Assembly: GCF_006175945.1 (NCBI RefSeq)
Contig: NZ_VAJL01000001.1
Location: 310,001 to 374,000, forward strand
Direction: 5' to 3'
DNA: 64,000 nucleotides
Source of the DNA: Chryseobacterium mulctrae
Lineage (GTDB): Bacteria > Bacteroidota > Bacteroidia > Flavobacteriales > Weeksellaceae
Program-made: the position numbers and the translations under genes
Part shown: piece after piece, positions 2,125 through 42,764 of the stretch
Layout of the letters: the number at the start of each line of letters is the position of its first letter
How positions within the stretch are numbered: the first letter of the stretch is position 1
The notes under the pieces: generated by a model
What the model was told of the DNA's origin: nothing
The model's input: the letters and a program-made list of their open reading frames with translations, nothing else
The model's database searches: none

Positions 2125-3654
2125 TTATTCCCACTCGATTGTTGCAGGCGGTTTGCTTGAAATATCGTAAGCTACTCTGTTGATCCCTCTTACTTCGTTG
2201 ATAATTCTGCTAGAAACAGTATCTAAAAACTCATAAGGAAGTCTGCTCCACGTTGCCGTCATAAAGTCGATTGTGTTTGCAGAACGAACAACCGCAGTGT
2301 ATTCGTAAGTTCTTTCGTCACCCATTACTCCTACAGATTTTACAGGAAGAAGCACCACAAAAGCCTGAGAAACTTTCTCATACAAATCGTTTTTGTACAA
2401 TTCTTCGATGAAAATATCATCCGCTTCCTGAAGGATTTTCACTTTTTCAGCATCTACAGCACCTAAAATTCTGATTCCTAAACCAGGACCAGGGAAAGGA
2501 TGTCTGTGTACCAAATGATGAGGAATACCCAATTCTTCACCTACTTTTCTTACTTCGTCTTTGAATAATTCTCTTAAAGGCTCCAATAATTCAAACTCCA
2601 TATCTTCCGGAAGTCCACCAACATTGTGATGAGATTTGATTACTGCAGAAGGACCATTTACAGACTGACTTTCAATTACGTCAGGATAAATTGTTCCCTG
2701 AGCTAAGAATTTAGCCCCTTCAATTTTATGAGATTCTTCGTCGAAAACGTGAATAAACTCGTTCCCGATAATTTTTCTTTTAGCTTCAGGATCATCAACT
2801 CCAGCTAATTTAGATAAAAATCTTTCTTTAGCATCAACAAGCTTAATATTCATATGGAAATGCTCTCCGTAATTCTGCATTACTTTTACATCTTCATCTT
2901 TTCTCAATAATCCTGTATCCACGAAGATACAAGTCAATTGATCACCAATCGCTTTGTGAATTAACACTGCAGCAACAGAAGAATCTACTCCACCTGAAAG
3001 ACCAAGAATTACTTTCTGATCTCCTACTCTTTCTTTAATTTCTGCAACTGTTTTGTCGATATAATTGGTCAGTTTCCAGTTTTTCTCTGCATTACAGATT
3101 GAGAAAACAAAGTTTTCTAACATTTTTCCACCTTCTTCTGTGTGAGAAACTTCCGGGTGAAACTGTACACAATAGATTTTTTTATCTTCATTAGAAATTG
3201 AAGCAATTACGCCAGATTTTGCATTTAATTCAAAACCTGCAGGTAATTCTCCCACTTCGTCAAAGTGGCTCATCCAAACAATAGAATCGTTGGTAACCCC
3301 TTTCAATAAAGAAGATTCTTTTACAATTTCCAAATGTGCTTTTCCGTACTCACCTTTTACACCTTTATGTACTTTTCCGCCTAAAAGATGTGCTGTTAAC
3401 TGCATTCCGTAGCAAATTCCCAAAACAGGAATTCCTTGTTCGTACAATTCTTTTTCAACTAAGTGTGCATTTTCTGCATTTACAGAACTTGGACCTCCAG
3501 AAAGGATAATTCCTCTCGGTTGTTTTTCTAAAATTGTTTCTAATGGTGTATTGAAAGGTAAAATTTCGGAATAAACCCCCATCTCACGGATTCTTCTTCC
3601 GATAAGCTGGTTGTACTGAGATCCGAAATCTAATATGATAATACCGTTGTTCAT
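2125..3654 (-). CDS. guaA: GMP synthase (glutamine-hydrolysing)
   Basis: Amidates XMP to GMP using glutamine and ATP. The 509 residues show an N-terminal class I glutamine amidotransferase domain, with nucleophile Cys81 in GICYGMQL and the His/Glu pair in QFHPEV at about 166-168. The ATP pyrophosphatase domain follows with the P-loop LSGGVDSS near residue 218, and then the C-terminal dimerisation domain ending PPATIEWE. It is the last gene of the minus-strand purine cluster, 157 bp after purD, with its own terminator downstream. Full length with no missing motif. Confidence 0.97.
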   Translation of the reverse strand: MNNGIIILDFGSQYNQLIGRRIREMGVYSEILPFNTPLETILEKQPRGIILSGGPSSVNAENAHLVEKELYEQGIPVLGICYGMQLTAHLLGGKVHKGVKGEYGKAHLEIVKESSLLKGVTNDSIVWMSHFDEVGELPAGFELNAKSGVIASISNEDKKIYCVQFHPEVSHTEEGGKMLENFVFSICNAEKNWKLTNYIDKTVAEIKERVGDQKVILGLSGGVDSSVAAVLIHKAIGDQLTCIFVDTGLLRKDEDVKVMQNYGEHFHMNIKLVDAKERFLSKLAGVDDPEAKRKIIGNEFIHVFDEESHKIEGAKFLAQGTIYPDVIESQSVNGPSAVIKSHHNVGGLPEDMEFELLEPLRELFKDEVRKVGEELGIPHHLVHRHPFPGPGLGIRILGAVDAEKVKILQEADDIFIEELYKNDLYEKVSQAFVVLLPVKSVGVMGDERTYEYTAVVRSANTIDFMTATWSRLPYEFLDTVSSRIINEVRGINRVAYDISSKPPATIEWE

Positions 3655-3661
3655 TTTTATA

Positions 3662-3689
3662 ATTGATAAATGATGATTGATAAATGATG
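3662..3689. repeat. Two direct copies of ATTGATAAATGATG
   Basis: Two exact 14-bp tandem copies sit between guaA and purD, directly upstream of the guaA start. They resemble simple-sequence filler and have no visible coding or promoter role. Confidence 0.6.
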
Positions 3690-3766
3690 AAAAGTTTAGG
3701 CTAAACTGTAAAATAAAACTAATTTCTAAGCTCTAATTTCTAACTTCTCAATATAAATTGCTTTAC

Positions 3767-3800
3767 AAAAAAAGACTTGGAATAGCTCCAAATCTTTTTT
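3767..3800 (-). terminator. Rho-independent terminator after purD
   Basis: AAAAAAGA-TTGG stem, 7-nt loop, and a run of T on the minus strand, 11 nt past the purD stop. Its one odd pair is G-U on the minus strand and a mismatch on the plus strand, which assigns it to purD. It implies that guaA has its own promoter or depends on readthrough. Confidence 0.7.
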
Positions 3801-3810
3801 CATGATTTTA

Positions 3811-5049
3811 TTAAAACTTTCCGATGTCTTCTCTGTAGAAGCCATAATCGAAATGTACATGACTTGCGTCTTCGTAAACTTTTTTGCGGGCATCTTCGTA
3901 AGTAGCGCCTGTTGCAACGATATTTAAAACTCTACCACCGTTAGAAACTACTTTATCTCCTTTTTTGATTGCTCCTGCATATAAAAGCTGACTGTGTCTT
4001 ACTTTTTCTTCACCAGTGATTTCAAAGCCGGTTTCGATATTTCTAGGATAACCTCCTGAACACATTACAAGACAAACTGCTTTTTCGTCTTTAAATTTAA
4101 GTTCAATTTCTTTACCTTCCATACAGTCGTTGATAACATCCAACAGATTATTTTCCATTAATGCCATCAAAACCTGAGTTTCCGGATCACCGAATCTCAT
4201 GTTGTACTCTAATAAGTAAGTTCCGTTTTTAGTAATCATTAATCCAAAGAAAATCATTCCTTTGAAAGTGAAACCTTCAGCTTTAAGACCTTTTACAGTA
4301 GGATTCAAAATATTATTTTCGAAATCAACATAATGTACTTCAGTGAATTCAGGGCTTGGAGCCACAGAACCCATTCCTCCTGTATTTGGACCAGTATCAC
4401 CGTTTCCTACTTTTTTGTAATCTTTAGCAGCAATACATGGATATATTTTTTCACCATTTGAGAATGCAATAATTGACGCTTCAAAACCGACTAAATATTC
4501 TTCGATAACCAAACGAATTCCTGCATCGCCATAGATTCTTCTGATCATAAAATCGTGAATCGTAGCTTCTGCTTCTTCCAAAGTTTCGCAGATTACAACT
4601 CCTTTTCCACCAGCAAGACCACTTGCTTTTACCACTAAAGGATATTCCTGATTCTGAACATATTCTTTAGCTTCAGGATAAGAATCAAACACTACCGCTT
4701 TTGCAGTTTTGATATCATAGGTCTGCATAAATTTCTTAGAGAAAGCCTTACTTCCTTCAAGACTTGCTACTTTCTGATTCGGACCGAAAACTTTAAGACC
4801 ATGCTTCTTAAATTCATCCTTCAAACCAGCTACTAAAGGAGCTTCTGGTCCTACAATCGTAAGATCTACTTTTTCCTTAATTGCAAAATCTCTAAGTTCT
4901 TTAATCTCTGATAAATGAACATTTTTTCCTATCGCACCAGTAGTTGCATTTCCGTTGGCGAAAAACATATGACTCACTCTAGAATCCTTCTGAAGTTTTG
5001 CTGCCAAAGCAGATTCTCTTCCACCTTCACCTATGATTAATATTCTCAT
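3811..5049 (-). CDS. purD: Phosphoribosylamine-glycine ligase (GAR synthetase)
   Basis: Joins glycine to phosphoribosylamine with ATP in the second step of purine synthesis. The 412 residues begin MRILIIGEGGRESALAAKL, the typical N-domain with a GxGxRE nucleotide loop. The ATP-grasp core contains KASGLAGGKGVV, GPNTGGMGSVAP and EYNMRFGDPETQ, and the C-terminal domain is complete. The length matches the family. It lies between purH and guaA on the same strand. A TATATTTG -7 box (5084-5077) precedes the start, so it may have its own promoter. Confidence 0.97.
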   Translation of the reverse strand: MRILIIGEGGRESALAAKLQKDSRVSHMFFANGNATTGAIGKNVHLSEIKELRDFAIKEKVDLTIVGPEAPLVAGLKDEFKKHGLKVFGPNQKVASLEGSKAFSKKFMQTYDIKTAKAVVFDSYPEAKEYVQNQEYPLVVKASGLAGGKGVVICETLEEAEATIHDFMIRRIYGDAGIRLVIEEYLVGFEASIIAFSNGEKIYPCIAAKDYKKVGNGDTGPNTGGMGSVAPSPEFTEVHYVDFENNILNPTVKGLKAEGFTFKGMIFFGLMITKNGTYLLEYNMRFGDPETQVLMALMENNLLDVINDCMEGKEIELKFKDEKAVCLVMCSGGYPRNIETGFEITGEEKVRHSQLLYAGAIKKGDKVVSNGGRVLNIVATGATYEDARKKVYEDASHVHFDYGFYREDIGKF

Positions 5050-5076
5050 ACTTTATTTATTATCTAGTCTATTTTA

Positions 5077-5108
5077 CAAATATATAATTTTGAATGCTAT
5101 AAATACAA
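5077..5108 (-). promoter_or_regulatory. Predicted promoter of purD
   Basis: On the minus strand TTG (5108-5106), 21 nt, then TATATTTG (5084-5077), matching the Bacteroidota consensus TTTG-N19..21-TAnnTTTG. It lies 28 nt before the purD start codon. Confidence 0.5.
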
Positions 5109-5137
5109 TCTCAAATTATTTTTTAATTCTATTTTAA

Positions 5138-6652
5138 TTAATGGAAAAAATGTCTAATTCCAGTAAACATCATCGGAATCTTGTGCTCATTTGCCGCTTC
5201 GATGCTGTCTTGGTCTTTTACACTTCCCCCCGGCTGAATAATTGCCGTAATACCTTCCTGAGCGCAGAAATCTACCACATCACGGAAAGGGAAAAACGCA
5301 TCAGAAGCTAAAACTAAGTCTCCTGAGAATTTTTCTTTTGCTCTTTCAATTGCTTGTTGAGTTGCCCAGATTCTGTTAACTTGTCCGCTTCCGATTCCGA
5401 AAGCCTGAATTCCGTTAGAAACTACAATCGCGTTAGATTTCACATATTTTACCACTCTCTGAGAGAATAATAATGCTTTCTTCTGCTCTTCTGTAGGCTG
5501 GGTTTCAGTAACTACTTTAATATCATCAGAGAAAATACTGTCGTTGTCCTGAACTAAAATTCCACCATCAACCTTCACCCAAGTTTGTTTGTCAGAAACA
5601 GGGTTTACGATTTTTATAATTCTTAAATTTTTCTTTTTTCTTAAAACTTCCAAAGCTTCTTCATCAAAATCCGGAGCCATTACAATCTCAAGGAATGTTT
5701 TGTTTAATTCTTCAGCTGTTGCTGCGTCGATTTTGTAGTTCATTGCAACAATTCCGCCAAAGATAGAAACAGGATCACATTCGAAAGTTTTTGCATAAGT
5801 TTCTAAAGCCGAAGTTCCGATAGCAACTCCACAAGGTGTAGAATGCTTTACAGCACAACAAGCCATTTCTTCTTTAAATTCTGTAACTACTTTCCAGCAA
5901 AGATCCATATCACGAAGATTATTGAAAGACAATTCTTTACCTCCCAATTGTTCGAAATCTTTCATTGCTCCATTTTCGAAAGTAGAAGCATAATAAGCAG
6001 CAGTTTGATGAGGATTTTCACCATATCTAAGGTCAGCAACTTTTTTGTAAGAAGCACTTAAATAAGTTGGATATTCTTCATCTAAAAGCATTCTTGAAAT
6101 TGCTGCATCATAAGCTGAAGTCAAATTGAATACTTTTCCTGCTAATTTTTTACGAGTTTCGATGTAAGTGTCACCGTTTTGTTCCATTTCGATTCTTACT
6201 TTTGCGTAATCTTCAACGTCAGTAAGTACCGTTACAGAATCAAAGTTTTTAGCTGCAGAACGAAGCATTGAAGGACCTCCGATGTCGATAAATTCTACTT
6301 TTTCGTGAAGAGCAATGTCTTTATTTACATTCTCAAAGAAAGGGTAAAGATTTACGATTACCATGTCGATCAAGCCAATTCCGTGCTCCTGAACGGTTTT
6401 CATGTGTTCTTCGTTTGAACGAACCGCCAATAAACCACCGTGAACTTTTGGGTGTAAAGTTTTCACTCTTCCATCCAACATTTCAGGAAAATCGGTTACT
6501 TCATCAATCTGAATTGGATTTAAACCAGCCTCTTTCAAATGTTTGAATGTCCCGCCTGTAGAAATCAATTCATAATTTTGGGATTCCAAAAACTGTGCGA
6601 ATTCTGTTAATCCGCTTTTGTCAGAAACACTGATCAAAACTCTCTTGCTCAT
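5138..6652 (-). CDS. purH: Bifunctional AICAR transformylase / IMP cyclohydrolase
   Basis: Catalyses the last two steps of IMP synthesis. I start it at the ATG at 6652 ([15 protein letters not shown]), because this is the conserved N-terminus and gives 504 residues, the usual length; the frame is open 24 codons further upstream but that stretch is not conserved in type. The N-terminal MGS-like cyclohydrolase domain has STGGTFKHL and [10 protein letters not shown]. The C-terminal transformylase domain carries the catalytic KHSTPCGVA and ends [11 protein letters not shown]. It is between purN and purD on the minus strand. Confidence 0.96.
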
Positions 6653-36006: not shown

Positions 36007-36900
36007 ATGCCTATTTTTGAAGAATATAACCATTTTCAAAATACAAGAAAACCAATGTATCAGGTATCCGATGAATTAAAAAAAAACGGCTTCAGCATTA
36101 ATCTTGTTTCTGACATAATAGAACGCAATAATTTTTCAAGAAAATTTAATACTTTAGAATATTTTGCAATTTATTTGGTTACCGAAGATCTCAATATTAC
36201 TATTGAAAACAAACCCTATAATATACCTGCTGGAAATTCTGTTTTCATTGGACCTCAAAAGAAGGTAGAATTTGGTAATGCACTAGGTAAAGAAATTTAT
36301 GCTATTATTTTTTCTAAAGAGTTTTTCGACAAAACATCGAAAGACAGTATATATTTAAATTCAAATATTTTTTTTAACAGCAAATCGCACATTTTTATAG
36401 CACCCTATTTTGGTAATAATGAGTACAACAAAGTTATTTTGATAGAAAGACTTAAAAGATTTTCTGTTATTGACAAAGTAAATATCTATTTTGCTGCTGC
36501 ACATAACGCTATAGAAAGTTTAATTCTTGATGCCCATTTGCATATTGATCATAAAAATGAGCCAAAAGAGCACATAGAATCTATAAGTTTAGTTAACCGA
36601 TTTACTGTAATTCTTCAAAGAGACTATAAAACTGAAAAAAAGGTTTCTCACTACGCGGACGAACTAAGAGTTTCTAGTAGGAAGCTAACCGAAATGACAG
36701 AATTTGTTTATGGTAAATCTGCCAAACAGATGATTATTGAAAAAGTAAGATTCGAATGTGAGAAAGCAATTAAATTTTCAAATAAAACTCTATCAGAAAT
36801 TGCATTTGATTTAGGATTTAAAGATGAAGGCAATTTCACTAATTTCATAAAAAAACACAGCGGAAAAAAGCCATCTGATATGAGAGAAATGATTCGCTAA
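36007..36900 (+). CDS. AraC family transcriptional regulator
   Basis: 297 residues. The N-terminal half is a cupin-like sensor (VTEDLNITIENKPYNIPAGN, then SVFIGPQKKVEFG). The C-terminal AraC domain (about 200-297) reads VSHYADELRVSSRKLTEMTE, GKSAKQMIIEKVRFECEKAI, TLSEIAFDLGFKDEGNFTNF and IKKHSGKKPSD. It lies upstream of the pilin/chaperone/usher-like operon in the same direction but 650 bp away, with its own terminator. It is a candidate regulator of that operon by position only. Confidence 0.9.
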   Translation: MPIFEEYNHFQNTRKPMYQVSDELKKNGFSINLVSDIIERNNFSRKFNTLEYFAIYLVTEDLNITIENKPYNIPAGNSVFIGPQKKVEFGNALGKEIYAIIFSKEFFDKTSKDSIYLNSNIFFNSKSHIFIAPYFGNNEYNKVILIERLKRFSVIDKVNIYFAAAHNAIESLILDAHLHIDHKNEPKEHIESISLVNRFTVILQRDYKTEKKVSHYADELRVSSRKLTEMTEFVYGKSAKQMIIEKVRFECEKAIKFSNKTLSEIAFDLGFKDEGNFTNFIKKHSGKKPSDMREMIR

Positions 36901-36943: not shown

Positions 36944-36968
36944 TGCTCTATTTTATAGAGCATTTTTT
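36944..36968 (+). terminator. Terminator after the second AraC gene
   Basis: Perfect 7-bp stem TGCTCTA / TAGAGCA with a TTTTA loop and T6, 43 nt past the stop. Confidence 0.8.
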
Positions 36969-36990: not shown

Positions 36991-37035
36991 AAAAATTGTA
37001 AATATTTAAAATCAAATATTTACAAATAATTTTTA
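36991..37035. repeat. Inverted repeat overlapping the large palindrome
   Basis: TTGTAAATATTT (36996-37007) pairs perfectly with AAATATTTACAA (37014-37025); the stem can extend outward (AAAAATT with AATTTTT) across a 4-nt bulge. The extended arm uses bases of the 46-bp palindrome, so the two structures exclude each other. Confidence 0.65.
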
Positions 37036-37070
37036 CGTGAAAATTTATAAATTTTCACGTAAAAATTATT
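37025..37070. repeat. Perfect 46-bp palindrome
   Basis: The 23-bp arm AATAATTTTTACGTG... is followed without spacer by its exact reverse complement ...CACGTAAAAATTATT. There are no mismatches in 46 bp. It lies between the AraC terminator and the candidate small-RNA promoter. Confidence 0.95.
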
Positions 37071-37125: not shown

Positions 37126-37318
37126 ATAATTAAAGACAATAAAAATTATCTATATCAGAAAATAAGAAAGAACACCAAATCACAAAGTTTTTATTAGTAT
37201 TATAATCTATTCTTTTCAACCGATACATTCATCATATTAATAAACTTTTCATCATCAGTTTTCAATGGTAACTGGATTTATTGAATAAAATCAATGAACC
37301 CAGTTACCTTATTTTTTT
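37126..37318 (+). ncRNA. Candidate small RNA or attenuated leader (~190 nt)
   Basis: The stretch is bounded by a consensus promoter (37090-37120) and a strong terminator-like hairpin (37267-37308 plus T tract). It has no credible open reading frame. It could be a free small RNA or the leader of the downstream surface-fibre operon with the hairpin as attenuator. Ends are estimated; no known RNA family is recognised. Confidence 0.35.
37267..37318 (+). terminator. Strong terminator-like hairpin 230 bp before the pilin-like gene
   Basis: Arms GGTAACTGGATTTATTGA and TCAATGAACCCAGTTACC pair over 18 bp with one mismatch and one G-U, a 6-nt loop, then TTATTTTTTT. It lies where no annotated gene ends. 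Confidence 0.75.
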
Positions 37319-37489: not shown

Positions 37490-37497
37490 TATCTTTG
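37490..37497 (+). promoter_or_regulatory. -7 box of the pilin-like operon
   Basis: TATCTTTG, 52 nt before the pilin-like start; a TTTG lies 25 nt upstream, slightly far. The likely main promoter of 37550-42764. Confidence 0.55.
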
Positions 37498-37549: not shown

Positions 37550-38071
37550 ATGAAACAATTTTTATTCGCGGCAGCAGGACTATTTGCTTTCGCAACAGCT
37601 AGCGCTCAAAATGTAACATTAAAGGTGAAATTAAAACCAATTCAAACGCTAGTAGTAAACAAATCTCAAGAAGATGTAAACTTAGAGTACAAAACAACAG
37701 ATGACTATCTAAATGGTGTATCATCACCCAATACAGATCACTTAAACATCTACAGTACAGGAGGTTTTGAAGTAAAAGTAAAAACTGACAACCCTACAAT
37801 GCAGAGTGGAGGAAAAAACATCCAATCAAATACTATTAAAATAACAGCTACAGCTGGTTCAAGTGCTGTTGATGGAGCTCAATACTCGCAAAACGTAGCG
37901 TTAGCTGGAACCGAAAGTACTTTGGTAACTTCTACAACTGGTGGAGCTAACAAAAAGATCAGCATTGAATATAGAGGAGCTGGACAAGATACTTACATAA
38001 ACAATTATATTGCAAATCAAGATCCTACTGTTTATACAGCTAAATTAATTTATACGATTGTTAGTAAATAA
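37550..38071 (+). CDS. Secreted pilin-like subunit
   Basis: 173 residues with signal peptide MKQFLFAAAGLFAFATASAQ. The mature protein starts NVTLKVKLKPIQTLVVN, an alternating hydrophobic strand suited to donor-strand exchange. It then has LNIYSTGGFEVKVKT and NTIKITATAG, and ends PTVYTAKLIYTIVSK. The C-terminal half of the 342-residue protein two genes on has the same order of motifs, including MSLKV, LQISTNTNFQIKVRS and a PTEYSTTLQYEI ending. There are no Cys. First gene of the operon, followed by a hairpin that may raise its level over the rest. Major-subunit role is inferred from size, order and homology to the two-domain subunit. Confidence 0.75.
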   Translation: MKQFLFAAAGLFAFATASAQNVTLKVKLKPIQTLVVNKSQEDVNLEYKTTDDYLNGVSSPNTDHLNIYSTGGFEVKVKTDNPTMQSGGKNIQSNTIKITATAGSSAVDGAQYSQNVALAGTESTLVTSTTGGANKKISIEYRGAGQDTYINNYIANQDPTVYTAKLIYTIVSK

Positions 38072-38095
38072 CAAACTATAACTATAGCATATTAT

Positions 38096-38123
38096 AGTGT
38101 CACAATTTATTTGTGACACTTTT
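38096..38123 (+). terminator. Hairpin between pilin-like and chaperone genes (partial terminator)
   Basis: Perfect 9-bp stem AGTGTCACA / TGTGACACT with a 7-nt loop and TTTT, inside the operon. It could stop part of the transcripts or stabilise the upstream mRNA, giving more subunit than chaperone. Confidence 0.6.
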
Positions 38124-38145
38124 CATGTAATTAAAAACACTATCA

Positions 38146-38937
38146 ATGAATAAAATCACCTTACTTTTCTTATTTCTGATCATACAAATCAGTGCACAGA
38201 CAGGTATTTCGGTTTCTCCACCGAGAGTATATTTTGAGTCTGCAGCAGGATCTAGTAGCACGCAAAAAATAACGGTTACCAATGTGAGTGCAGAAAATAC
38301 GTTAGACCTTGCAGTAAGTTTGGGAGATTGGGATTATGATGAAAAAGGTGAAAATAATATGTATGCAGCCGGTACATTGAAAAACTCTTGTGCAAGCTGG
38401 ATCAATATTAAGAAAAACGATAATTACTTCAGCCTGGCTCCCGGAGAAAGAAAAGAACTGGAAGTAACCCTTACTTCACCTACAATAAATCAGGATAAAC
38501 TTTCTGCGCATACTGCTGTATTATTTGTTAGCCAAATGAATCCTGTAGATGATGTAGACAAAAAAGGAGTAAAAATTAAAGTAAGTATTCGTTCTGGAAT
38601 AAAAATATTCCATAGAACACCAGAAGTAGTAAAAAGAAAGATTGAAATTAAGGATTTGAAATTTGACAGCTCGAAAAAGCTTTTGAATATCACCTTTGAA
38701 AATCAATCAGATATTTGGACAGATGGAAAAATCATCACAGATATCATTAATACAAGTACTGGTAAAAAAATTGCCATAGAGCCTATTGTTTTTTATACAT
38801 TACCCAGAAACATTAGAAAAATAAGCATTCCTGTAGAGGATTTAAAAGATAAAGGCTCATATAACGTGTCGGTTATGATTGACTATGGAGATAACGAGAC
38901 ATTAGAAATGGGAGAACTAAATTTTAATTATGAGTAA
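38146..38937 (+). CDS. PapD-like periplasmic chaperone
   Basis: 263 residues with signal peptide MNKITLLFLFLIIQISAQ. The N-terminal Ig-like domain opens GISVSPPRVYFESAAGSSST and QKITVTNVSAENTLDLAVSL and has LAPGERKELEVTLTSP, the pattern of fimbrial chaperones (PapD-type G1 strand and preceding loop). SAHTAVLFVSQM follows. The second domain has LNITFENQSDIWTDGKII and ends MGELNFNYE. It would bind subunits in the periplasm and hand them to the usher. The start lies 74 bp after the pilin-like gene; the end overlaps the next gene by 8 bp. Confidence 0.82.
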   Translation: MNKITLLFLFLIIQISAQTGISVSPPRVYFESAAGSSSTQKITVTNVSAENTLDLAVSLGDWDYDEKGENNMYAAGTLKNSCASWINIKKNDNYFSLAPGERKELEVTLTSPTINQDKLSAHTAVLFVSQMNPVDDVDKKGVKIKVSIRSGIKIFHRTPEVVKRKIEIKDLKFDSSKKLLNITFENQSDIWTDGKIITDIINTSTGKKIAIEPIVFYTLPRNIRKISIPVEDLKDKGSYNVSVMIDYGDNETLEMGELNFNYE

Positions 38938-39958
38938 GGTATTAGTCGCTCTATTCATCACAATATCCATAATAGTTAATGCACAGGTTTCATTTACTTC
39001 ATGGACAAACAGCTACGTGCAGGTAAATTCTTATAATGGAAATAATAATCCTGATGCTTATACCGTAACATTTGCAGCCAATGGTAATTTAAACATGCCT
39101 TATTGGAAACTTTCTGCAAAACTTAAGCAACCCATAACTTCTACAGACGGACAATATACTATTCCTGGAAATAAGATATCCTTTCAGCCTATTTCTTCAA
39201 CAGGGCAGGCTTATCCTAATCCTACTCCATCATTAGCGCAAATCGGAGTGCCACCCAATGTATTTTTACAAGAAAATGCAGAAGTTTTTTTGGTTCCACA
39301 ATCAAATGCGCCAATGTACAATATGCCCGCAACGCCAAACGGCTATTATAATCTTCAGCTTAAATACGGAATTACCATCATGGGAGGCGCGTATTTGGGA
39401 ACTTATCCGGCATGGACAAGGTTTGCAGCTCCCGTAGAATTTACAGCTTACGATCAATACAACAATGTGATTGGAAAATTAAGCCATACTTTTGAATTTC
39501 ATATTGCTAATTTGACGGGAACGCCGCCTGTAACCCAGGAAATGTCTTTAAAAGTAAACATGAATGCTGCAAACGGATTACTTGAATTTAATAGTATGCA
39601 GGATTACAACAACGGAACGAATGTTGTTTATCCTAGTGGTTTGCAAATCAGCACAAATACCAACTTTCAGATAAAAGTGCGTTCACTACAAAGTCATTTG
39701 TTATCCAATATTGGTAATTATTCTATTCCTGTGGGTGCAATACATCTTAGTTTGCAACCTTTAGGTCAGAGTAATCAAACTGTTTTTCCGATAACATTAA
39801 GTACAGCAAGCCAGACTCTTGCCAAAGGAAATGTATCTCAAACTACAATCTACAATTACGACATCAAATATTTTACATTGCCACAAGATGAGCAATTAAT
39901 TAACGCTAAGCCTACTGAGTATTCTACTACGCTACAGTACGAAATTACTCCTCAATAA
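38930..39958 (+). CDS. Two-domain subunit, tip-adhesin-like
   Basis: 342 residues with signal peptide MSKVLVALFITISIIVNAQ. The N-terminal half (about 20-200) contains WKLSAKLKQPITSTDGQYTI, PGNKISFQPIS and many Asn/Pro/Tyr. The C-terminal half (about 205-342) has EMSLKVNMNAANG, LQISTNTNFQIKVRS, GNYSIPVGAIHLSLQPLG and the ending PTEYSTTLQYEITPQ. The second half aligns in motif order with the 173-residue pilin-like protein, and the two halves also resemble each other (QYTIPGNKISFQP versus NYSIPVGAIHLSLQP). This matches the head-domain plus pilin-domain plan of fimbrial adhesins. Overlaps the chaperone gene by 8 bp; the usher-like gene follows after 10 bp. Confidence 0.72.
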   Translation: MSKVLVALFITISIIVNAQVSFTSWTNSYVQVNSYNGNNNPDAYTVTFAANGNLNMPYWKLSAKLKQPITSTDGQYTIPGNKISFQPISSTGQAYPNPTPSLAQIGVPPNVFLQENAEVFLVPQSNAPMYNMPATPNGYYNLQLKYGITIMGGAYLGTYPAWTRFAAPVEFTAYDQYNNVIGKLSHTFEFHIANLTGTPPVTQEMSLKVNMNAANGLLEFNSMQDYNNGTNVVYPSGLQISTNTNFQIKVRSLQSHLLSNIGNYSIPVGAIHLSLQPLGQSNQTVFPITLSTASQTLAKGNVSQTTIYNYDIKYFTLPQDEQLINAKPTEYSTTLQYEITPQ

Positions 39959-39968
39959 AATTTAGAAG

Positions 39969-42764
39969 ATGCCTTTTTTAAGCAGAAGATTTTTGTTCAC
40001 CCTTTTTATCGTTTTATTCAGTAGCATTTATTTAAATGCACAAAAACCTGAATCGAATGTGACGATGGAAATAGAACAAGGAAGTTCGCCATCACGTTCC
40101 AAACTTTTAAATCTTGTTGTAGTTATTCAAAATTTAAATTCTAATAATTTCAGCGGAAAACTGCAATTTGTATGTCCGAAAGGATTTAAAATTATCTCTG
40201 GTGAAGAGCCAATAATAGAACTTAAACCCAACGAAAAAAAATATTTACCTGTAAGAGTTATTATAGAATCTGATGCTAAAGCAGGATCTTCACCTATAAA
40301 AGTCCGATTACTCGATCAGCTTGGAATTTTGATTGCAGAAAGGATAAAAGAACATGTTATTGAGATTAATAATAACCTCAGTTTAACAGTCTTAAACGCT
40401 CCTATTTACAGATCTTCCAGCCAAGAACCGATATCGGTTAAAGTGAGAGTAAGCAACTCGGGAAATATTTCTCAGGATATTACCCTAGTCTGCAAAATTC
40501 CTGATCCTGAAAATGGAAATCAGTTTTTGGAACAGCAAGCTGTAATCAATGTAAAAAAAGATTCTACTTTCACATTTACTTATCAGCCTTCAAAAGGATT
40601 ATCCAGATTATCAAATTTTTCAATAAGTGTGTCTGGTTTTAGAAATCCTGACAAAGAAATATTTAATTCAGCTACTGTTTTTGTGCAGAATATTTCCAGT
40701 GTTCAGAAATATCAGGATCCGCAGTTCAATAATTTTGCCGAAGAAACAAAAAATCAGATTACAGCTTCTTACAGAAAGGTTGGAGATAATATCGACATGT
40801 ATCAGCTAATTGGTTCTGGTGGTTTCAATTTGCCTACTGGGTTTCTTTTTATGAGAGGAAATATTGCGCTTCTCGAAAGTCAGCCACAACCTTTGGTAAC
40901 CAATACGAATATTGTTCTTCAACAAGGTAAGGATCAATATACCATTGGAAGCGTTAATAAGCTTTTAGAAATGACTTTGGTAGGAAGAGGTGTAGAATAC
41001 AGCCATACTTTCGGAAAAGACAAAAAATTGGAGGTCGGGTTTATTGATCAGAACTTTAATCTTATTGAAAAAAACAGCTTTTTAAAAAACGGTTACGGTT
41101 TCTTTACCAAAGGAACACTTAACGCCGACAACAGTTCAAGAAATATTTCGGCAGCATATATTTACCGTTACGATCCTTTTGAAAAAAGTAAGCACAGTAT
41201 TTTGGGAACAGAAGCCAATTATGCTTTTGATAAAGTATGGAGCATGAATGCAAAGGTAAATGCAGGTTTAAGTTCTTACGAAACTCAGGATCTTACAAAA
41301 CCTTCCTTTTCTGCTGAATCTAATTATATTGGAGCTATTAAAGATTATAATCTTAGCGGAAACTACTTTTTCAGTTCAGGATATTACCCTGGAAATAGAC
41401 GTGGAAGTATACAGTTGCAGCAGAATATTTCAAAGAATTACAAAAATTACAACTTTTTCGGTAACGCTATATTCTCTAATTTTTCGCCAAAATATTACTT
41501 TTTGGACCGACCACAGGTTTCTGAAAACACAAGAATTGAGTTGGGAACTAAATTTCCGAGAGTAAAAAACTTTAGTTTTGGGCTTTTTTATCAGTTTCAG
41601 AATGAAAACTCAAACAGCTACAACAATTTCTTTGGAGCTTGGGAAGATAGTGAATTGCGCGATCTTACAGCACATAGAATTGTAGAACAAATTTCATGGT
41701 CAGATTACAAAACAAGACAATCTGCAGTGTTTGCATTTGAAACAGGAATTGTAAAATATCCGCTTTCTGACGATCAGAAATTCCAAATGAAACTGAATGG
41801 AAATTACAGTTTTAAAAACTTCAATATCAATGCGATTTACCAATCCGGAAGTTATTACTTGTCTGAATATGCATTCTCTCATTTAGCATCAGAAGACAAT
41901 GATTATAAAAGACTTACAGTTTCGCTTTTCTATAACAATAGCTTCATCAAAGACAAATTCAACCTGAGTACAGGATTATCTTATGTAGATGATATTATCT
42001 ATGGAAAATCGCCTTCTGCATTTGTAAATGCAAAGTATAACAGTAAAAATTTCGGTATATTTCTGAACTCTTCATGGTACAATTATTCGGTAGGAGTTTT
42101 GGCTAATAATATTCTGACATTTGAACTTGGTTTAACTTTAAACTTAAGAAATGCTGTATTAAGTCCCGACAAAAAAGGGAAAATTCAGGTGCTTGCTTTT
42201 TATGATGAAAACAACAACAACATTTTTGATTTAGGAGAGAAAACCGCAAACGATTATATTGTCAACATCAATAATGTAGCTCTTAAAACTACAGCAGACG
42301 GAACAGCAACTTACAAAAATGTACCTTTCGGAAAATACAGACTGAAACAGTTTACTCAGCAAGGTTGGTATTATGATGAGTATGATTTTAATGTAGATTC
42401 TTATTTGTTTCCTTTAAATATTCCGCTTCATCAGAACGGAACACTTCAGGGTAAAATATCTTTTGATTATAACTCAAGAGTAGCAGTTGATTTCGAGCAC
42501 AGAGCATCTTCAGTGGCATTTCAAATCATTAAGCAAAACAATGTTATCCAAAGAATCGGAAGTGACGACGAAGGAAAATTCAACTCATTTTTACCAACAG
42601 GTAACTATACAATTATCATTGATGAATCTACGCTTCCCGCCAATACATATTGCGAAACAAAAAGCTTTGATATTAATATAAAAGCTGGAGAAATTGTGGT
42701 TGTTCCTGACTTCGTTATTAAAGTAAGAGAGAAAAAAATAAATAAAAAAACTTTCAGTAATTAA
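39969..42764 (+). CDS. Usher-like outer-membrane beta-barrel protein
   Basis: 931 residues with signal peptide MPFLSRRFLFTLFIVLFSSI ending LNAQ. Residues 30-245 form two NEW3/Ig-like domains (KLLNLVVVIQNLNSNNFSGK, PISVKVRVSNSGNISQDITL). Residues 260-735 are a long run of amphipathic aromatic-ended strands, typical of a large outer-membrane barrel. From 737 an SdrB-like domain (FYDENNNNIFDLGEK) occurs, as in the plug or C-terminal domains of alternative ushers, and then a second beta domain near 830-920. With a chaperone and two related subunits in the same operon, an usher role is the best reading, but no pfam-type PapC motif is evident by eye. Confidence 0.7.
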   Translation: MPFLSRRFLFTLFIVLFSSIYLNAQKPESNVTMEIEQGSSPSRSKLLNLVVVIQNLNSNNFSGKLQFVCPKGFKIISGEEPIIELKPNEKKYLPVRVIIESDAKAGSSPIKVRLLDQLGILIAERIKEHVIEINNNLSLTVLNAPIYRSSSQEPISVKVRVSNSGNISQDITLVCKIPDPENGNQFLEQQAVINVKKDSTFTFTYQPSKGLSRLSNFSISVSGFRNPDKEIFNSATVFVQNISSVQKYQDPQFNNFAEETKNQITASYRKVGDNIDMYQLIGSGGFNLPTGFLFMRGNIALLESQPQPLVTNTNIVLQQGKDQYTIGSVNKLLEMTLVGRGVEYSHTFGKDKKLEVGFIDQNFNLIEKNSFLKNGYGFFTKGTLNADNSSRNISAAYIYRYDPFEKSKHSILGTEANYAFDKVWSMNAKVNAGLSSYETQDLTKPSFSAESNYIGAIKDYNLSGNYFFSSGYYPGNRRGSIQLQQNISKNYKNYNFFGNAIFSNFSPKYYFLDRPQVSENTRIELGTKFPRVKNFSFGLFYQFQNENSNSYNNFFGAWEDSELRDLTAHRIVEQISWSDYKTRQSAVFAFETGIVKYPLSDDQKFQMKLNGNYSFKNFNINAIYQSGSYYLSEYAFSHLASEDNDYKRLTVSLFYNNSFIKDKFNLSTGLSYVDDIIYGKSPSAFVNAKYNSKNFGIFLNSSWYNYSVGVLANNILTFELGLTLNLRNAVLSPDKKGKIQVLAFYDENNNNIFDLGEKTANDYIVNINNVALKTTADGTATYKNVPFGKYRLKQFTQQGWYYDEYDFNVDSYLFPLNIPLHQNGTLQGKISFDYNSRVAVDFEHRASSVAFQIIKQNNVIQRIGSDDEGKFNSFLPTGNYTIIIDESTLPANTYCETKSFDINIKAGEIVVVPDFVIKVREKKINKKTFSN

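Follow-up and report, generated by a model that had tools for sequence, protein, structure and literature searches.

A candidate chaperone-usher-type pilus operon of Bacteroidota with an usher-like, apparently plugless barrel

Introduction

Chaperone-usher pili are textbook adhesins. In the classical systems (E. coli Fim/Pap), a subunit, a chaperone, a platform (the usher) and a two-domain tip protein are encoded in a single operon. The chaperone is of PapD type with an Arg/Lys pair and an alternating hydrophobic G1 strand, the subunit carries an extension that the tip lacks, and the platform consists of an N-terminal part, a barrel and two C-terminal domains. Here, we study a four-gene cassette (S1, CH, S2, BA) of Chryseobacterium mulctrae that has all of these features in common with them. 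It lies within a stretch of 64,000 nucleotides (G000:C1:310001-374000, "the window" in the following) of a 4.87 Mb genome. We consider it highly probable that the cassette is a pilus operon operating by donor-strand assembly of the chaperone-usher kind, and that it represents a separate Bacteroidota class whose barrel is usher-like but apparently has no plug.

The cassette also differs from the classical systems. Its subunits show no match to pilin families, the tip gene is located between the chaperone and platform genes, and the host belongs to the Bacteroidota. The BA barrel is not recognisable as an usher by sequence, has 26 predicted strands instead of 24 and no inserted plug domain, and is preceded by two N-terminal domains instead of one, while its C-terminal domains are of SdrB/SpaA type. 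The type V pili (P. gingivalis Fim/Mfa) are strand-exchange pili of Bacteroidota, which are built from lipoprotein precursors in a protease-triggered manner with no periplasmic chaperone or usher. In contrast, the cassette subunits show neither a lipobox cysteine nor a fimbrillin match.

Two papers on the spread of chaperone-usher systems name as hosts, in the parts of their text available to us, Proteobacteria, Cyanobacteria and Deinococcus-Thermus, or "a wide range of phyla"; no word starting with "Bacteroid" occurs in these main texts. Likewise, no chaperone-usher system of Bacteroidota is found among the listed titles and abstract starts of the open literature, i.e., with subscription papers and bioRxiv outside of the search.

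Results

Gene layout

All four open reading frames (ORFs) are on the forward strand. Lengths are given in amino acids (aa).

37550..38071, + strand: S1, secreted one-domain subunit and proposed shaft pilin (173 aa ORF)
38146..38937, + strand: CH, periplasmic PapD-type chaperone (263 aa; hhalign to E. coli chaperones)
38930..39958, + strand: S2, two-domain subunit and proposed tip adhesin (342 aa; AlphaFold model, Foldseek)
39969..42764, + strand: BA, usher-like outer-membrane barrel protein (931 aa; AlphaFold model, Foldseek)

S1 and CH are separated by 74 bp, CH and S2 overlap by 8 bp, and 10 bp lie between S2 and BA. This is exactly the tight spacing reported by an earlier reading of the sequence (the original prediction), whose list of parts, i.e., a secreted subunit, a PapD-like chaperone, a two-domain subunit and a 931-aa barrel with end domains, is upheld by our domain assignments. 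An apparent Sec-type signal peptide ending in A-Q can be seen by eye at the start of each of the four proteins. That these parts fit a chaperone-usher system is supported by the homology of CH, the relation of S1 to S2 and the fold likeness of BA.

Chaperone

We compared CH with 10 fimbrial chaperones of E. coli K-12 by profile-profile alignment (hhalign) and obtained 97.2% (E 4.3e-11, 215 columns). The claimed PapD likeness is thus confirmed at this level, though CH remains below the cut-off for the Pfam model PapD_N alone (E 0.032) and sequence searches of the Protein Data Bank (PDB) with CH returned no match. Respective control pairings gave 0.1% for ushers, 22.6% for pilins, 41.4% for S1, 12.6% for S2 and 87.7% for BA. 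The BA N-terminus resembles CH in having both a signal peptide and a domain of Ig-like type. Two features are central:

38224..38226, + strand: CH Arg27, counterpart of PapD Arg8 (invariant in 67/67; lines up with the TR motif in the E. coli chaperones)
38575..38604, + strand: CH residues 144-153 (IKVSIRSGIK), donor-strand-like G1 strand including Lys153 (aligned to LQLAIISRIK of FimC)

In hhalign, the CH motif IKVSIRSGIKIFHR falls onto LQLAIISRIKLYYR of FimC. Among the chaperones of class A, i.e., the class of the window's cassette, Arg27 and Lys153 are each found in 67/67 sequences. The hydrophobic positions nine, seven and five residues ahead of the lysine are also well kept (I144 in 65/67, V146 in 63/67, I148 in 48/67 with V in another 19). 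The PapD counterparts of Arg27 and Lys153 are Arg8 and Lys112, and the three hydrophobic positions correspond to donor residues in the PapD G1 strand.

According to the part of PMC4654587 available to us, a carboxylate-binding pair of this Arg/Lys type is used by classical chaperones and absent from archaic ones. Judged by sequence, the CH pair is of the classical type, and membership of CH in class 5 or the archaic group is therefore rejected. The same part of that paper calls one proline invariant across the chaperone superfamily. At this position, the window's CH has a lysine, and a proline follows one residue on in 8/13 class-A rows, with an insertion making the register unsure. The names of CH relatives in NCBI, UniRef and JGI include "fimbrial biogenesis chaperone", "molecular chaperone" and "P pilus assembly chaperone PapD".

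Subunits

The following features of the two subunits are relevant:

37607..37636, + strand: S1 residues 20-29 (QNVTLKVKLK), N-terminal extension and proposed donor strand (S1/S2 hhalign; relatives; alignment to TLP-2, see below)
39536..39955, + strand: S2 residues 203-342, C-terminal pilin domain, a homologue of S1 that lacks its N-terminal extension

S1 matches the C-terminus of S2 with 99.4% in hhalign (E 4.5e-21), and this alignment begins at S1 residue 30. The preceding extension of about 10 residues shows alternating hydrophobics (V22-L24-V26-L28) and has no counterpart in the C-terminal domain of S2. Its pattern is present in most of the 70 full-length S1 relatives listed. A subunit with the extension next to a pilin domain without it corresponds to the layout of shaft pilin and tip adhesin.

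For S2, an AlphaFold model was built from 56 S2 sequences of the fetched loci (65 were recognised) and reached a predicted local distance difference test score (pLDDT) of 89.1. The best Foldseek matches of this model are the fimbrial proteins CfaB, CupB6 and CfaE, and its 50 listed matches also contain CooA, EcpA, F17-G and AggA, alongside others. S2 has features in common with archaic and alternative systems (Csu, CFA/I, ECP): CfaB ranks first, CfaE further down, and EcpA as well as one chain of the CsuC-CsuA/B complex are among the matches listed.

No such relation is seen by sequence. Neither S1 nor S2 matches a pilin family in Pfam, and against 17 E. coli pilins hhalign yields 4.9% and 2.7%, respectively, such that the profile comparison of the subunits with pilins came out negative. 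PDB sequence searches with S2 and two paralogous subunits gave nothing useful. Some S1 proteins are named DUF4402 in UniRef, a family that showed up neither in the Pfam scans nor in any paper of the open literature searched. The original prediction had noted the absence of familiar fimbrial motifs from the subunits. This stands with regard to family matches, but fimbrial logic is recognisable in the extension on S1 and its absence from the S2 pilin domain.

Two further S1-like genes were observed. Between the regulator and S1, many Chryseobacterium loci (e.g., L101:4776-5237) have a gene of about 121-154 aa that is absent from the window. It combines the S1 signal peptide and N-terminal extension with a shortened and divergent body and may encode a terminator or anchor subunit. 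The other, located downstream of the barrel, occurs in one genome of the same family (L050:10724-11278).

Barrel protein

We predicted the structure of BA with AlphaFold based on 77 of 120 listed homologues (pLDDT 83.2). The predicted template modelling score is 0.56, and the relative placement of the domains is therefore uncertain. The following parts are distinguished:

40059..40691, + strand: two N-terminal beta domains, residues ~31-241 (model strands; FixG_C in 12/20 alignment members)
40755..42143, + strand: 26-strand barrel, residues 263-725 (DSSP on the model)
42174..42725, + strand: two C-terminal SdrB/SpaA-like domains, residues ~736-919 (model; SpaA E 3.6e-7)

The original prediction of additional beta domains at both termini is borne out, with two at each end of the model. 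Among the members of a 20-row barrel alignment, 18 match CarboxypepD_reg, 16 SpaA, 13 SdrD_B, 12 FixG_C and 1 NEW3 (E <=0.1). No folded insert that could form a plug domain is found within residues 263-725 of the predicted model, where the longest links are 361-375 and 627-646.

When the model is compared with known structures by Foldseek, ranks 1-11 are all FimD/PapC ushers (E 2.8e-14 to 4.2e-10), aligned over 756-840 columns, i.e., nearly the whole chain. The best non-usher match has E 1.8e-9, and both BtuB and LptD rank behind the ushers. None of this is mirrored by sequence: the usher model PF00577 has 0 matches in the genome (with a positive E. coli control), hhalign of BA against 7 E. 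coli ushers gives 10.8%, all pairs of BA and usher slices remain below 7%, and the PDB sequence search with BA gave nothing useful. With respect to ushers, the profile comparison of the barrel is thus negative and the structural one gives a mixed result. The likeness of BA to ushers would accordingly be one of fold, as seen in a predicted model, and no sequence comparison supports a link. A BA motif (G327...GRG341) that had been likened by eye to the usher segment before the plug scored 0.4-1.4% in hhalign on slices and was not used.

These observations have to be weighed against convergence, i.e., CH is a true relative of PapD while an unrelated outer-membrane exporter took the usher's place, such that the mechanism would be the same but not the ancestry of the platform. 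Several results speak for it and against our interpretation. Beside the missing sequence relation, the 26 strands and the lack of a plug in the model, the end domains of BA are of general types (FixG_C, SdrD_B, SpaA). Furthermore, porins and TonB-dependent receptors tie with ushers on the Z score of VIA-align, where BtuB even shows the lowest root-mean-square deviation. On the other hand, the Foldseek order, in which ushers precede BtuB and LptD, speaks against convergence. Among the 50 listed VIA-align rows, ushers alone span the barrel together with the C-terminal domains (433-445 residues), and the order of N-terminal domains, barrel and two C-terminal domains is that of ushers. We regard convergence as rather unlikely, albeit as the most probable of the alternatives considered.

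Likeness to TLP-1/TLP-2 filaments

TLP-1 and TLP-2 (PDB 9IKJ, 9IKK) are filaments solved by cryo-electron microscopy. They are reportedly CryoSeek filaments from the water of a university pond, for which TLP stands, and were solved without a known maker. We searched 177,635 PDB sequences with a widened S1 profile (A13, 40 sequences), which was built after the TLP lead had appeared. TLP-2 (E 0.0028) and TLP-1 (E 0.0042) are on top, followed by the next match at 0.41. For a smaller S1 profile, they rank third and fifth (E 0.14 and 0.31), and the S2 profile does not list them. The E-values are modest and the TLP subunits are longer (236-237 aa vs. 173 aa for S1). Still, the S1 extension (residues 20-29) is part of the alignment and pairs with TLP-2 residues 5-14, mature S1 N-terminus included. 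TLP-1/TLP-2 are also the best structural match of the C-terminal pilin domain of S2.

A search of 395 Bacteroidota genomes with a 60-residue piece of TLP-2 identified a single gene (L158:2001-2594; E 2.2e-8, 41% identity). It adjoins a chaperone gene (2749-3606) and a barrel gene (3593-6508). This cassette had been retrieved through its barrel before the TLP search. Given these alignments, S1 qualifies as a homologue of the TLP subunits. If true, this link would provide assembly genes for an already solved fibre.

Sister operons

The same genome contains two further cassettes, named class B (C1:38717-45367) and class C (C1:2682602-2686833). Class B comprises two subunits of 181 aa, a chaperone, a barrel and a tip-like protein of 477 aa, and its relative L067 carries five subunit genes in tandem. 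Class C consists of a subunit of 205 aa, a chaperone and a barrel of 906 aa. A tree computed from 27 barrels supports classes B and C with 100/100 each and class A with just 71/91, the most distant rows being on long branches. The lysine of the CH pair is lost in the paralogues of both classes, the arginine in class C.

WxL-interacting proteins are Gram-positive surface proteins. Three chaperones of classes B and C (L034:6311-7111, L035:7316-8116, L156:6394-7194) pass the Pfam cut-offs for WxLIP_PGBD or WxLIP_HBD, while the window's own CH does not. This suggests, as far as sequence families can tell, a common descent of PapD-type chaperones and WxL-interacting proteins. Together with the preceding section, a broader interpretation can be put forward, which we hold only tentatively: the cassettes may represent a chaperone-usher-type class native to Bacteroidota that builds environmental filaments of TLP-1 type on an apparently plugless 26-strand platform, with chaperones bridging PapD and WxL-interacting proteins.

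The passed WxLIP cut-offs imply that this chaperone group also touches a system that is not known for fibre formation. One could hence argue that, as in WxL-type surface complexes of Gram-positive bacteria, CH and BA merely fold S1 and S2 and export them as individual proteins of the surface or matrix, with no polymerisation. This is improbable when confronted with the N-terminal extension that S1 has and the tip-like S2 has not, with the five tandem subunit genes of L067, and with the likeness of S1 to subunits of filaments, extension included.

In many Chryseobacterium records, the class B subunits (L034:4718-5263 and 5685-6230; relatives among P0294-P0360) are named "peptidoglycan-binding protein LysM". 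No Pfam domain was found in the one that was scanned, and the name has probably been given in error to a pilin-like protein. The class B operon is flanked by two contiguous ORFs (L034:12776-13947) with starts that, by eye, presumably resemble IS3-type transposase halves.

Conservation of the cassette

We used a set of more closely related barrel sequences to scan GTDB genomes, which resulted in 68 loci. These are mainly from Chryseobacterium, but also from Flavobacterium, Mesonia, Myroides, Paenimyroides, Sinomicrobium, Arenibacter, Weeksella, Niabella and Dysgonomonas. The order S1-CH-S2-BA is unbroken in 63/68 loci (S1 being cut by a contig end in one of them). Concerning the five exceptions, contig ends truncate L109 and L135, L149 is at a contig end with its barrel split into two pieces, the sole intruder in L129 is a small ORF called on the opposite strand between S1 and CH, and no S2 could be recognised in L137. 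Both flanks were readable in 66 loci, and in 55 of these CH and S2 overlap by 8 bp.

Within the same family, 42/148 genomes show a barrel match, two of them weak. A strong class-A match is present in 39 family genomes besides the window's own, 31 of which were sampled (L036-L066; 8 left out). Here, the order is the same in 30/31 loci, and the remaining one is truncated where its contig ends. The identity of these barrels goes down to 23-24%.

Among 395 genomes across the phylum, CH reaches at least 150 bits in 14, and BA at least 95 bits in the identical 14. Both cut-offs were set at gaps after viewing the two lists, and only 2 and 6 candidates, respectively, were scored per genome. Weaker CH and BA matches at most about 3 kb apart are found in at least 6 more genomes (G434, G387, G386, G372, G424, G320). 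Most of the 118 genomes in a wider tally have matches to the SdrB-like domain alone and are not counted as cassettes. The genes are thus kept together across Bacteroidota, which settles a point on which the original prediction could have failed. Two Bacteroidota loci deviate in layout: the cassette order is rearranged with the barrel first in L155, and the barrel is on the opposite strand in L157.

This conservation also bears on whether BA is just a porin or uptake barrel that happens to sit beside surface-protein genes. VIA-align places porins and TonB-dependent receptors as high as ushers and a folded plug is lacking, such that this part of the objection persists. However, the gene order is fixed, the 8-bp overlap recurs, strong CH and BA matches occur in the very same genomes, BA has domains at both ends and Foldseek puts ushers first. 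A plain porin is therefore very improbable. Even less probable is a type V (Fim/Mfa) pilus or type IX secretion (T9SS) cargo, which only the host group would suggest and which we reject, since S1 and S2 have no lipoprotein cysteine after the signal peptide, no fimbrillin or T9SS C-terminal family is matched in Pfam or NCBIfam, and a chaperone and barrel of this kind are not known among the parts of either system.

Proposed assembly

For the interpretation as a chaperone-usher-type pilus, we infer the following route, which extends to strand exchange, pore function, assembly order, adhesion and stoichiometry. First, Sec would carry S1 and S2 into the periplasm. There, the G1 strand of CH would complete their presumably unfinished Ig-type fold, with Arg27 and Lys153 holding the C-terminal carboxylate of the subunit. 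BA, with its own N- and C-terminal domains, would then take up these complexes and export the growing fibre. S2, which has no N-terminal extension, would be first out and form the tip. Finally, the N-terminal strand of each incoming S1 (about residues 20-29) would displace the chaperone strand of the preceding subunit, and the resulting S1 fibre may resemble the solved TLP-1/TLP-2 filaments.

The system differs from the described classes in its platform, its subunit families and its host phylum. To speak of a new assembly class, as the original prediction did, is reasonable because neither PF00577 nor PapD_N is matched in the genome at E 0.001 and no pilin family is matched by the subunits. 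A working Bacteroidota version, if true, would extend the pathway to a phylum that is frequently found in water, soil and guts. A plugless platform, if true, would cast doubt on whether gating by a plug is essential.

Regulator, promoter and RNA signals

Upstream of and within the cassette, the following features were identified:

36007..36900, + strand: AraC-type regulator, 297 aa (HTH_18 E 2.4e-12)
36944-36962: terminator-like hairpin directly after the AraC-type regulator
37490..37497, + strand: TATCTTTG, Bacteroidota-type -7 promoter box, 52 bp before S1 (motif search)
38096..38120, + strand: terminator-like hairpin between S1 and CH (10-bp perfect stem, T-rich tail)

In most of the 68 loci, an ORF of about 270-307 aa precedes S1 at a distance of one or two genes, and those listed have starts that look alike by eye. 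The AraC-type regulator is probably transcribed separately from the cassette.

The consensus of the -7 box is TANNTTTG. Within 120 nt before S1, it is present in 57/65 loci, compared to 3.1 expected from shuffles. An upstream TTG (-33) box at the spacing tried was seen in 2/65 loci only, i.e., the -33 part of the promoter is unsupported.

For the hairpin between S1 and CH, RNAalifold reports a consensus stem of 12 pairs in 24 relatives, with 11 pairs in which both sides have changed and pairing is preserved. These 24 sequences were hand-picked from 66 after the result of a strict search was seen. The strict single-sequence search finds the stem in 21/66, and in several others a stem with mismatches occupies this position. 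Based on its sequence and position, the hairpin could end part of the transcripts, which would leave the shaft subunit S1 in excess.

Two more elements are located in the gap between the regulator and S1 of the window. One (37267-37308) consists of an 18-bp hairpin and a subsequent T-rich run. The other, upstream of S1 at 37025-37070, is a perfect, loopless 46-bp palindrome of two 23-nt arms (AATAATTTTTACGTGAAAATTTA) and is perhaps a site for a regulator.

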